NCBI RefSeq assembly: GCF_023078835.1 | Contig: NZ_CP090898.1 | Coordinates: 186,001 to 250,000, forward strand | Length of the DNA: 64,000 nt | DNA from: Synechococcus sp. NB0720_010 | GTDB lineage: Bacteria; Cyanobacteriota; Cyanobacteriia; PCC-6307; Cyanobiaceae | Direction of reading: 5' to 3' | Shown: in pieces, positions 30,001 to 33,695 of the stretch | How positions within the stretch are numbered: the stretch's first letter is position 1 | Layout of the letters: every line of letters starts with the position of its first letter | Translations under genes and position numbers: made by a program | Notes under the pieces: model-generated | Seen by the model: only the letters and a program-made list of their open reading frames with translations | Told to the model about the DNA's origin: nothing | Database searches by the model: none

Positions 30001-31056
30001 TCAGGGCTTGGTGGCAGTCCAGACCCGGGTCATCAGATGGGATTGGGCACGAATTCCGCTGAATCCTGCTGCGCTCAGGCGAGCGTCGATGTCATCGCCG
30101 ATGTAGTCGCGGTAGTACGGCTCATGGAACATCCGGCGGAAGTTGTCCATGGCGACTTCAAATTGCGGTGAGTCAGCCAGCTGGACGGAATCCGCAAGCA
30201 CCAGGACACCACCAGGTTCCAGAACCCTGAAGCAGTCTTCGATCACGGCCTGACGCGCTTCGCCTGGCAGTTCGTGCATTAAGAAGACGCAGGTCACCCC
30301 CTGCATGCTCCCTTCTGCAAAGGGCATCGACTCGGCGTTGCCCTGGACCAGCTGGGGTAGTTCCGATGGACGTTGCGAGAGCCAGCGATTGGCCTGGCGC
30401 AGGTAGGCCGATGACAGATCCAGGCCCACGAGCTGCGCCTGGGGCAGGGCTGCTCGCAGTTGATGCAGGGTCCGGCCAGTACCGGTGGCGACGTCCAGAA
30501 CCCGAAGGGAGCTGCTGGGTCTGTCACCGAAGGCGCGAAGGCCTTGGACCAACGGCTTGATCACCCGCCGGCGCATGGGATCGGCCGTGCCGTTGAACAG
30601 GATCTCGACCTGCAGGTCGTAGAGGGTCGCCGAGTGATCGCTCAGATAGCCATCGGTCTGATGGTGGAAGTTCTGCAGGTAGTAGTCGGGGTAGTTCTCG
30701 GTCTCGACGTTGGTGGGAAGGTCACGGACGTTGCGCTCGGAGCGCCTGGTCCAGGTGCTGGGCATGTCCAGCCAGACCAGGGGGTAGCGCGCGGCCCAAT
30801 CGCCCCAGGGGGCATCAAAGAGCAAGTTGGTGGGATACAGCCCCGCTTCTGCTTCTTGCCAATCCAGGTCCAGCAGGGCCTTGTGGGAGGCCTGCAGGTC
30901 CCGAAGCATCTGCGGCGGAATGGGCAGGGTTTTGGGCGCTCCATCGGGCGCCACAATTTCCATCAGGCGTGTGCTGATCTCCTTGTGGGCGACCCCGACC
31001 AGGCTCTTGCCCTGCTGTAGGGCCTCGTAGGCGAGCTTGGTGACGGCGTCAGCCAT
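30001..31056 (-). CDS. Class I SAM-dependent methyltransferase
   Basis: The 351-residue protein has an unusual N-terminal region of about 165 residues (MADAVTKLAYEALQQGKSL, then DWAARYPLVWLDMPSTW). A Rossmann methyltransferase domain follows, with motif I LDVATGTGRTLHQL, an acidic LVGLDLSSAYL and VFLMHELPGEARQAV. The C-terminal half matches the methyltransferase 11/25 superfamily; the substrate cannot be deduced. ATG 31056 was preferred to ATG 31086 because MADAV begins the recognisable helix. It is divergent from the small gene at 31219 across 162 nt. Confidence 0.83.
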   Translation of the reverse strand: MADAVTKLAYEALQQGKSLVGVAHKEISTRLMEIVAPDGAPKTLPIPPQMLRDLQASHKALLDLDWQEAEAGLYPTNLLFDAPWGDWAARYPLVWLDMPSTWTRRSERNVRDLPTNVETENYPDYYLQNFHHQTDGYLSDHSATLYDLQVEILFNGTADPMRRRVIKPLVQGLRAFGDRPSSSLRVLDVATGTGRTLHQLRAALPQAQLVGLDLSSAYLRQANRWLSQRPSELPQLVQGNAESMPFAEGSMQGVTCVFLMHELPGEARQAVIEDCFRVLEPGGVLVLADSVQLADSPQFEVAMDNFRRMFHEPYYRDYIGDDIDARLSAAGFSGIRAQSHLMTRVWTATKP

Positions 31057-31170
31057 GGGCGGGATGCCACTGATCTCATGTGGCACCTATTTCAGCCGAT
31101 GGGATGCAGTCGCTGTGGACTTGTATCGGCTTGAACTCTGATCAAGATTGATGGAGATGCGCGCAAATTG

Positions 31171-31184
31171 GTAGCAACAGCTAC
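31171..31184 (+). promoter_or_regulatory. Perfect NtcA-type box, GTA-N8-TAC
   Basis: The sequence GTAGCAACAGCTAC is an exact match to the NtcA consensus GTA-N8-TAC. It ends 34 nt before the ATG of the 76-residue gene at 31219, and a strong Shine-Dalgarno occupies part of the interval. It therefore lies over the expected core promoter rather than 22 nt ahead of a -10 element. That geometry suits repression more than activation. The reverse orientation toward 31056 lacks a suitably spaced TAN3T. Binding is inferred. Confidence 0.6.
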
Positions 31185-31218
31185 AGAATGAATCTGTGAA
31201 ACAGGAAGGAGGAAGTCA

Positions 31219-31449
31219 ATGATCGATACCACCCCCTCTGCTCGTTTGAACGAGCCGCACTATGTCGCCTGGGTGCGAGAGCGCCAGCGTGCCGCCCGTC
31301 GGCTGAGCGGCTGGCTGTCTCAGCGCCGGGCCAAGCCCGACCTGGATCATGAGGAGCGGGTCGACGCTCAGACCTTGGTTTGGGCCCAGCGCCATGCCCA
31401 TGAGCAACGGCTGCATGACAGCGCCATCGAGCAGCTGCGTCACAGCTGA
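31219..31449 (+). CDS. Small charged protein beside glnA; candidate GS regulator
   Basis: The 76-residue soluble protein is rich in Arg, Gln, His and acidic residues (12 Arg, 1 Lys, 11 Asp/Glu). Its N-terminal helix contains HYVAWVRERQRAARRL; residues Val-Arg-Glu-Arg-Gln resemble the Ile-Lys-Asn-Arg-Gln of the cyanobacterial glutamine-synthetase inactivating factor IF7, as I remember that sequence. The strong ribosome site AGGAAGGAGG precedes ATG 31219. The gene converges on glnA with a glnA-directed terminator between them, and a perfect NtcA box overlaps its promoter region. The role as an inactivating factor is a hypothesis, not an identification. Confidence 0.75.
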   Translation: MIDTTPSARLNEPHYVAWVRERQRAARRLSGWLSQRRAKPDLDHEERVDAQTLVWAQRHAHEQRLHDSAIEQLRHS

Positions 31450-31458
31450 CTCGCCATC

Positions 31459-31484
31459 AAAAAGCCCCGGCCGAAGCCGGGGCT
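31459..31484 (-). terminator. Rho-independent terminator of glnA
   Basis: A nine-base perfect stem (AGCCCCGGC with GCCGGGGCT) and a four-base loop is followed on the bottom strand by TTTTT, 20 nt past the glnA stop. On the top strand no T-run follows, so it should terminate glnA only and not the convergent small gene. Confidence 0.85.
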
Positions 31485-31503
31485 GCCATGAACGAGACCC
31501 TGA

Positions 31504-32922
31504 TCAGGCGTCGTAGTACATGGTGAATTCGTGGGGGTGGGGCCGCTGGCGCAGCTGCTGCACCTCCTCGTACTTCAGAGCGATCCAGTTGTCGATGAAG
31601 TCTTCGGTGAAGACGCCACCGGCCAACAGGTATTCGTGATCAGCCTTGAGGGCTTCCAGTGAGCCGTTGAGGGACGCGGGAACGGTCGAGATCTTCGCCA
31701 GCTCCTCGGCGGGCAGTTCGAACAGGTCGACGTCGGTGCCATTGCCCGGATCGATCTGGTTCTTGATGCCGTCGATGCCGGCCATGAGCATGGCGGCAAA
31801 GCCCAGATAGGGGTTTGCCAGAGCGTCGCCTGAGCGGAATTCCAGGCGCTTGGCCTTGGGATTCATGCCGGTCAGCGGGATGCGGACGGCGGCGGAACGG
31901 TTGCCCTGGGAGTACACCAGGTTCACCGGTGCTTCAAAACCGGGCACCAGGCGCTTGTAGCTGTTGGTGGTCGGGTTGGTGAAGGCCAGGAAACTGGGGG
32001 CATGCTTCAGCAGGCCACCGATGTACCAACGGGCCGTTTGGGACAGGTTGGCGTAGGTGCCATCGCCCCACATCAGGGTGTCGCCGTTCTTCCAGATGCT
32101 CTGGTGAACGTGCATGCCGCTGCCGTTGTCGGCAAAGATCGGCTTGGGCATGAACGTGGCGGTCTTGCCGTACTTCTTGGCAACGTTGCGCACGACGTAC
32201 TTGTAGATCATCACGTTGTCCGCCGCGGTGATCAGCTCGGCGAACTTCATTCCCAGCTCATGCTGGGAGGTGGCGACCTCGTGGTGGTGCTTCTCGATGG
32301 GCACACCCAGGGAGCCCATGGTGAGGAGCATCTCGGTCCTCATGTCCTGAAGGGTGTCGTTCGGGGCGACGGGGAAGTAGCCCTCCTTCAGTTGAATCTT
32401 GTTGGCGAGGTTGCCACCTTCTTCAACGCGATCGGTATTCCAGGGGTTCTCGATCGAGTCGACGCTGTAGAAGCTGGAGCCATTGGCGCTCTTGTAGCGC
32501 ACGTCGTCAAAGACGAAGAACTCGGGCTCGGGTCCGAAGTAGGCCGTGTCGGCCAGGCCGCTGGAGCTCAGGTAGTCCAGGGCCTTCTGGGCCAGGGCAC
32601 GGGGGCAGCGGGAGTAAGGCTTGCCACTACGCGGCTCCTGAATGGAGCAAATCAGGCTGAGAGTTTTGTGGCCGTAGAAGGGGTCGATCCAGGCGGTGTT
32701 TGGGTCGGGCACCATGGCCATGTCCGACTCGTTGATGGCCTTCCAGCCGCGGATAGAGGAGCCGTCAAAGGCAACGCCCTCAGTGAAGGCTTCCTCTTCA
32801 ACCAGATCAGGGGTGACGGTGAGGTGCTGCCACTTGCCGTGGAGGTCAATGAACTTGAGGTCAATCAGTTCAATGCCTTCGTCCTTGATCTGACGGAGGA
32901 CGTCCTGGGCGGTCTTGGCCAT
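31504..32922 (-). CDS. glnA: Glutamine synthetase type I
   Basis: GlnA is the entry enzyme for ammonium assimilation, a dodecamer making glutamine from glutamate. The 472-residue product begins [19 protein letters not shown] at ATG 32922. Family motifs seen include FDGSSIRGW, the [11 protein letters not shown] metal site, the ATP-binding [18 protein letters not shown] and the [18 protein letters not shown] loop. The usual adenylylation tyrosine is replaced: the segment reads [10 protein letters not shown], with Phe where enterobacteria have Tyr397. That fits cyanobacterial control by inactivating proteins and NtcA instead. The promoter elements at 32973-33015 look NtcA-dependent. Confidence 0.97.
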
Positions 32923-32972
32923 GACGCGTTGAAAATGGCTTGGTGGGTGCCGGCCTGTACCGGACGGCTCAG

Positions 32973-33015
32973 ACCGTAGTGATCGGCGATGACCCCGCTT
33001 TGTATCGCCCGTAAC
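32973..33015 (-). promoter_or_regulatory. NtcA-activated promoter of glnA
   Basis: On the bottom strand GTTACGGGCGATAC (33015-33002) fits the relaxed NtcA box GT-N10-AC, differing at one base from GTA-N8-TAC. Twenty-three bases further is TACGGT (32978-32973), a TAN3T -10 element. This is close to the canonical class II spacing of about 22. The leader to the ATG would be about 45 nt, too short for a glutamine riboswitch. The assignment rests on motif and spacing. Confidence 0.68.
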
Positions 33016-33164
33016 CAAATGGAGGACTCATCGGCCTGTTTTGGACTCCTCCGCTGGTTTGAGTAACCGTTTCTGTCAACTTCTTCAAAACCTCGATCCA
33101 GCAAGGGATCTGGACGTTTGCCGGTGCTACGGTCCAACCCAGGTGCGTCGATCTCACACCCACA

Positions 33165-33695
33165 ATGCGTGATGCCATCACCGGTCTGATCGGCCGTTAC
33201 GACCAGCTCGGCCGTTATCTCGACGGCTCGGCTATTGACCGAATCGCCACCTATTTCTCTGAATCGTCGTTGCGTCTCGCTGCGGTTGAGCTGATCAACT
33301 GCGAAGCCGCTGAAATCGTCCGCGAGGCCAGCCAGCGCCTCTGGCAGTCGGATCCCGAGCTGTTGCTACCCGGCGGCAACGCCTACACCACTCGCCGCTG
33401 GGCTGCCTGCCTGCGGGACATGGATTACTTCCTTCGCTACGCCAGCTACGCCTTGGTGGCTGACGACAGCACAATCCTGAACGAGCGGGTCCTGAACGGC
33501 CTGGATGACACCTACAAGAGCCTCGGTGTCCCCACTGGTCCCACCGTTCGCAGCATCGCCCTGATGGCCGATGTGATTAGCGAGAAATTGCTCGATTCCG
33601 GTGCCGCTAGTGCGGAGCTCATCAACAGTGTTGTTCGTGCTCCTTTTGAGCACCTTTGCCGCGGCTTGGCTGATACCAACGTGCGCGCCCGCTGA
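33165..33695 (+). CDS. apcF: Allophycocyanin beta-18 subunit
   Basis: ApcF is a core phycobiliprotein that replaces a normal beta subunit near the terminal emitter and helps pass excitation to the photosystems. The 176-residue product starts MRDAITGLIGRYDQLGRYLD. The chromophore cysteine lies in RRWAACLRDMDYFLRY and the methylated-asparagine site in PGGNAYTTRR. The rest matches the beta family (YKSLGVPTGPTVRSI). It is a few residues longer than typical because of the C-terminal ADTNVRAR. It stands apart from any apcABC cluster and is divergent from glnA. Confidence 0.93.
   Translation: MRDAITGLIGRYDQLGRYLDGSAIDRIATYFSESSLRLAAVELINCEAAEIVREASQRLWQSDPELLLPGGNAYTTRRWAACLRDMDYFLRYASYALVADDSTILNERVLNGLDDTYKSLGVPTGPTVRSIALMADVISEKLLDSGAASAELINSVVRAPFEHLCRGLADTNVRAR

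Follow-up and report, generated by a model that had tools for sequence, protein, structure and literature searches.

The closest described counterparts of the locus analysed here are IF7 (GifA) and IF17 (GifB), which inactivate glutamine synthetase (GS) in cyanobacteria. In Nostoc, as described in passages of one source, gifA lies tail-to-tail with glnA, is repressed by NtcA and is de-repressed when NtcA leaves the DNA (PMC11288750). The gifA mRNA extends antisense into glnA, antisense control has been demonstrated, and the tail-to-tail order is seemingly exclusive to Nostocales (PMC11288750). Synechocystis uses two factors; in gifB the NtcA site is centred at -7.5, and the DUF4278 half of IF17 is described as dispensable for function (PMC6316151). 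In the same 2018 review, the part on GS regulation in marine picocyanobacteria is headed 'Unclear', full-length inactivating factors apparently being lacking, and DUF4278 proteins with glutamine riboswitches (PMM1846) are proposed to control GS (PMC6316151). A further small regulator of a nitrogen-assimilation enzyme, NirP1 (about 80 aa), is NtcA-repressed and acts on nitrite reductase; it contains a conserved Cys and three Trp, has a calculated pI of 4.59, and is reported missing from Prochlorococcus and from the majority of marine picoplanktonic Synechococcus (PMC10907346). Among the open-licence papers listed for GS inactivation or small proteins with NtcA, picocyanobacteria, alpha-cyanobacteria or Cyanobium, and for the WH8102 NtcA regulon, none mentions a GS inactivator of the family presented below in its title or the start of its abstract, and the locus tag SYNW1073 retrieved no paper.

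The small gene and its protein family

The window, that is, the whole 64-kb stretch of DNA analysed, carries glnA and, converging on it, an ORF of 76 aa with 54 nt between the two stops (Table 1), as the initial annotation had described. The ORF starts with ATG and has an SD-like GGAGG. It is a real, selected protein gene: among four close relatives, dN/dS is 0.07-0.11 in six pairs (NG86) and 0.06-0.14 in the four pairs that gave values by YN00, and substitutions in these pairs fall mainly in third codon positions. Among the genomes sampled, the small gene is restricted to one taxonomic family. A class-wide sample contains it in 8 of 291 genomes, all 8 within the window's family, and in that family it has matches in 76 of 251 genomes and 15 of 59 genera, a few being paralogues or weak. 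The majority of the 251 genomes thus have no match, which counts against a role as GS inactivator. Conservation is dense within the genus (24/25 genomes, the window's own included; later counts exclude two further hits, L034 being a partial second copy and L035 a weak match). The closest named records are MAGs labelled Synechococcus, Vulcanococcus and Cyanobacteria bacterium, and from the first two names we infer the label alpha-cyanobacteria for the window's family.

Table 1. Features of the glnA-small gene locus (window coordinates)
Feature	Position	Strand	Remarks
SAM-dependent methyltransferase, divergent	30001..31056	-	ATG 31056 by conservation; GTG 31086 possible too
Putative core promoter of small gene	31148..31177	+	-35-like TTGATG 31148-31153; -10-like TAGCAA 31172-31177, 18 nt apart, the latter inside the box
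NtcA-type box GTAGCAACAGCTAC	31171..31184	.	34 nt before ATG; recurs in 56/67 syntenic loci
Small gene, 76-aa candidate GS inactivator	31219..31449	+	Conservation, dN/dS, internal repeat, predicted helices
Intrinsic terminator, glnA's direction	31463..31484	-	No U-tract for transcription from the small gene
glnA (glutamine synthetase type I, 472 aa)	31504..32922	-	Convergent with small gene
glnA promoter	32973..33015	-	GTTACGGGCGATAC (33015-33002), 23 nt, TACGGT (32978-32973); NtcA class-II activator layout

To judge from its sequence, the small protein represents a separate, lineage-restricted family consisting of two copies of one helical motif. Residues 11-46 align with residues 47-76 at an hhalign E of 2e-8 (score 31.6, where the highest of 100 column shuffles reached 17.3), and each half of the window protein contains the motif W-x3-[HR]-x4-R-x5-[IL]-x-Q once. 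Two loci (L088 and L089) encode three such units and have no exact NtcA box. An AlphaFold model, resting on a shallow 5-row alignment, predicts two helices (13-38 and 42-75; mean pLDDT 77, pTM 0.35), and Foldseek returned a single PDB match for it (E 9.9). In a 29-row alignment of the family, two Trp are conserved and Cys is not; W18, W55 and L65 are among the conserved residues. In a set of 68 sequences that takes in paralogues and three-unit forms, net charge (K+R-D-E) spans -14 to +11, which is unlike a fixed electrostatic inhibitor and likewise weighs against GS inactivation.

Curated collections contain no match to the window protein (Pfam, NCBIfam, PHROGs and, by sequence, PDB), and Pfam returned nothing at E <= 10, DUF4278 (PF14105) included; confirmation of the candidate role would name a family without a match in these four resources. 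When 29 members were searched against Pfam, NCBIfam and PDB profiles, the best E was 0.014, and such matches, scattered over single members, were taken as chance. Phages yielded one match of 32 residues (E 0.7) and plasmids none. No RNA family attained its gathering score over 30800-33300, where an HIV-1_SL4 match (20 nt, 25.6 of 31 bits) was also taken as chance.

The family is not recognizably related to IF7. The initial annotation had likened a short helix (VRERQ) to IKNRQ of IF7, and this likeness found no support: an hhalign comparison of the family profile (59 rows) with 20 IF7 sequences gave E 0.46 and a probability of 0.1%, which falls within what 20 column shuffles produce, so that homology is rejected, and hmmsearch in both directions gave a best E of 0.057. 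This genome contains no IF7 homologue. Across a phylum sample, IF7 occurs in 71 of 194 genomes, none of the 71 in the window's family, for which at least 12 genomes in that sample, this one included, have no match. Both proteins are small (65 aa for IF7). The small protein is less basic, as had been noted, with net charge +2 and pI 9.9 versus +4 and pI 10.4, but the difference is small; the three essential arginines of IF7 cannot be placed in it without an alignment, and the charge of the family is variable. Of the proposed IF7-type interpretation, what stands is a regulator site and a gene order conserved over 11 genera. With Nostoc gifA, only these two features are shared, and the small protein differs from GifA/IF7 in having no detectable homology, a two-unit internal repeat and a distribution confined to the window's family. 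Outside that family, an IF7 gene in genus g64 (G273:C1:1186294-1188041), the same genus as 100% IF7 hits, lies tail-to-tail with glnA with 137 nt between the matches, which contrasts with the restriction of this order to Nostocales given in a passage of PMC11288750.

The NtcA-type box and opposite promoter layouts

The box, placed by the initial annotation exactly where it was found, is the sole exact GTA-N8-TAC site in the window. Dinucleotide shuffles gave a mean of 0.47 exact boxes per window, at least one in 38 of 100 shuffles, and a rate of about 0.001 for the 132-nt intergenic stretch 31087-31218. As the genome contains 50 exact sites, the box alone proves little, and its conservation carries the weight. 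Seventy-three loci were read: 24 belong to the genus, and the other 49 come from 48 of the 60 remaining positive genomes of the family. Of these loci, 67 are syntenic, meaning that glnA, the methyltransferase or both adjoin the small gene within the DNA fetched. An exact box lies no more than 260 nt upstream of the domain match in 56 of these 67 loci, spread over 11 genera (21/24 in the genus, 35/43 outside it); the counts are over related, and thus not independent, genomes. Together with the presence of the gene throughout most of the genus, this bears out the expected conservation in relatives. The eleven syntenic loci without the exact box, which weigh against the favoured reading, are L029, L031, L033, L054, L055, L056, L070, L075, L085, L088 and L089; L033 and L085 retain the box with one mismatch, and in L033 (GTAGCAACCGCCAC) the small gene has itself decayed, with internal stops. 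None of the six non-syntenic paralogues has an exact box. The flanks are partly conserved (TT[TC] before, AGAAT after), and the distance from the box to the first ATG in frame has a median of 34 nt (range 3-152), falling between 28 and 36 nt in 30 of the 56 loci.

A control set comprised 39 methyltransferase loci in two samples (12 and 30, three shared; the search behind the larger matched 55 of 64 genomes and yielded loci for 30), from genomes with no small-gene match except G047 and G166, which have matches elsewhere. The span searched was the glnA-methyltransferase gap or, in nine loci with no glnA directly there, 600 nt upstream. The box is missing in 38 of the 39, so it belongs to the small gene, and since the two are mostly gained or lost together, ownership by the methyltransferase is argued against. 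The sole control locus with a box, L157, has (by eye) a 38-aa ORF 28 nt behind it that ends in HLIWASLHQRDRR, the first motif of the small-protein family, and so retains a truncated copy of the small gene.

The core promoter of the small gene was set by eye from a partly conserved block 15-27 nt before the box, TTGATG or TTGTGA-like and 17-18 nt from the TA(G/T)CAA inside the box; a strict sigma-70 scan at the small gene found no site. If the block is the -35 element and TA(G/T)CAA the -10 element, the box centre falls near -7, a position near the start point like that of the NtcA site of gifB. A class-II activator layout, defined as TAN3T 20-24 nt behind the box, occurs toward the small gene in none of the 56 loci. 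However, all seven glnA promoters examined (window, L005, L006, L121, L122, L124 and L126; 19-25 nt allowed) have the activator layout. The small gene and glnA thus have promoters of opposite layout, and here, as at gifA, the box overlies the expected core promoter. As no activator-spaced -10 is present in any of the 56 loci, repression is the natural reading, and NtcA very probably binds the box and represses the small gene. A DUF4278 gene elsewhere in this genome (L037) offers independent support: only one nt separates its exact NtcA box GTAGCAACCGCTAC from the glutamine-II aptamer that follows, so that transcript must start at or before the box end.

Candidate targets of the small protein

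The adenylylation motif of E. coli GS is NLYDLP. In this genome its tyrosine is replaced (DLFELP), as the initial annotation had noticed, and no GlnE domain was found. The explanation that we favour, with a probability of roughly 57%, is that the small gene encodes an NtcA-repressed GS inactivator of alpha-cyanobacteria that is not homologous to IF7, an explanation drawn from sequence and from analogy with the described systems. At low nitrogen and high 2-oxoglutarate, NtcA would activate glnA and occupy the core promoter of the small gene; on the arrival of ammonium NtcA would depart, and the small protein would be made, bind GlnA and lower GS activity. Antisense transcription into glnA may reinforce the effect, as in Nostoc. 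GS is a moderately likely target and forms the best single reading because convergence with glnA recurs, the promoter layouts are opposite and Nostoc offers a parallel. An enzyme inhibitor would then have been replaced by an unrelated protein while regulator site and gene order were kept or re-evolved. The small-protein family is a concrete candidate GS inactivator in members of the wider picocyanobacterial lineage. A more tentative version, to which we give somewhat less than even odds, holds that alpha-cyanobacteria evolved their inactivator independently of IF7, with bivalent helical repeats and with protein and antisense RNA acting jointly. The gene order and control of the Nostoc gifA type would on this view have evolved a second time, around an unrelated protein, and a helical motif in two, sometimes three, copies could bridge GS subunits or rings; that the bivalent protein spans two sites on the GS dodecamer is speculation.

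The small gene and glnA are tail-to-tail in most loci, but glnA is an inconstant direct neighbour: it lies within the fetched DNA at 17 of 24 genus loci, while the methyltransferase, the stricter neighbour, is present at 24 of 24. This counts against the GS-inactivator reading. When 13 loci were extended, glnA was found convergent at about 0.7-5.2 kb in 8, the small gene being kept; the contig ended within a few kb in L195, L198 and L203, and in two loci of genus g18 (L201 and L202) the remaining stretch of contig, about 10 kb, contained no glnA. In L200, glnA and the small gene are separated by apparent arginase/agmatinase-like and urea-transporter-like genes (named from their translations). 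The alternative that survives best, although we hold it to be unlikely at about one chance in four, is that the small protein is an NtcA-repressed regulator of another nitrogen or carbon target (PII/PipX, a transporter or another enzyme) and that nearness to glnA is inherited order. NirP1 sets a precedent, the two g18 loci keep gene and box with glnA out of reach, and the six paralogue loci (L052, L053, L061 and L093-L095; genera g59, g30 and g24) have neither box nor glnA beside them. Convergence with glnA nevertheless recurs in many genera, and NirP1, with its conserved Cys, third Trp and acidic pI, differs from a family in which only two Trp, and no Cys, are conserved.

Less probable again is that GS is inactivated by riboswitch-controlled DUF4278 proteins, the small gene having either nothing to do with GS or an auxiliary role as second factor. 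The genome contains two DUF4278 genes above the cut-off, each with a glutamine riboswitch: L037 (1492-1699; G000:C1, near 1142016-1142214), a mini-gene whose glutamine-II riboswitch scores 67.2 bits (RF01704) and which has the NtcA box described above, and L036 (G000:C1:27614-27778), with a riboswitch of the glnA type (RF01739) at 35.9 bits (cut-off 35). With PMM1846-type proteins the small gene shares a related lineage, an NtcA motif and a proposed role in GS control, but those proteins form a different, riboswitch-controlled family, and their counterparts in this genome lie elsewhere. However, the L037 product is merely 33 aa from an inner ATG, and it is the DUF4278 half of IF17 that is reported as dispensable in Synechocystis. 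The two explanations are also compatible, given the two factors of Synechocystis: with no IF7, no GlnE and two riboswitch-bearing DUF4278 genes, this genome may have IF7-like and IF17-like arms made from other parts. The likeness of the small gene to gifB would extend to such a two-factor set; unlike IF17, the small protein has neither DUF4278 nor an IF7-like half, and no glutamine riboswitch was found at its gene. Both riboswitch types thus occur in one genome, and the type other than the glnA type (DP) is called apparently restricted to marine picocyanobacteria in a passage of PMC6316151.

It is improbable, with odds of a little under one in ten, that any effect on GS comes mainly from antisense RNA reading into glnA, the peptide being secondary. 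Forty loci have glnA no more than 600 nt away; among these, the best intergenic hairpin is followed by a U-tract (5 T in 9) toward glnA in 21 and toward the small gene in none; 10 loci have no hairpin, coding ends overlap by estimate in 5 further loci, and two more have gaps of 738 and 926 nt. As no clear terminator for the small gene's mRNA precedes glnA, antisense read-through is plausible, and Nostoc gifA supplies a precedent. However, the small protein is under strong purifying selection, and since its gene is kept where glnA lies kilobases away, antisense RNA cannot be the whole function. Marginally less probable still is control of the divergent methyltransferase, rather than the small gene, by the box: the box is near-palindromic, sits between the two divergent starts, its distance from the methyltransferase ATG being about 114 nt, and accompanies the strictest neighbour, but, beyond its absence from nearly all gene-less control loci, just one of the 56 loci (L012) has TAN3T at 20-24 nt from the box on the methyltransferase strand, and L077 has box and small gene with no methyltransferase in the fetched DNA.

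Some GlnA columns differ between loci with and without the small gene, but descent confounds the two sets, and nothing is concluded from these columns. The small-genome, low-GC loci that were read lack the small gene, so this family leaves the Prochlorococcus question unsettled. In six low-GC picocyanobacterial loci (L145, L147, L166, L169, L173 and L174), the gap between glnA and the methyltransferase contains a different gene on the glnA strand, whose product (98-127 aa) has a hydrophobic stretch at its N-terminus and the motif EPxYxWxEI.
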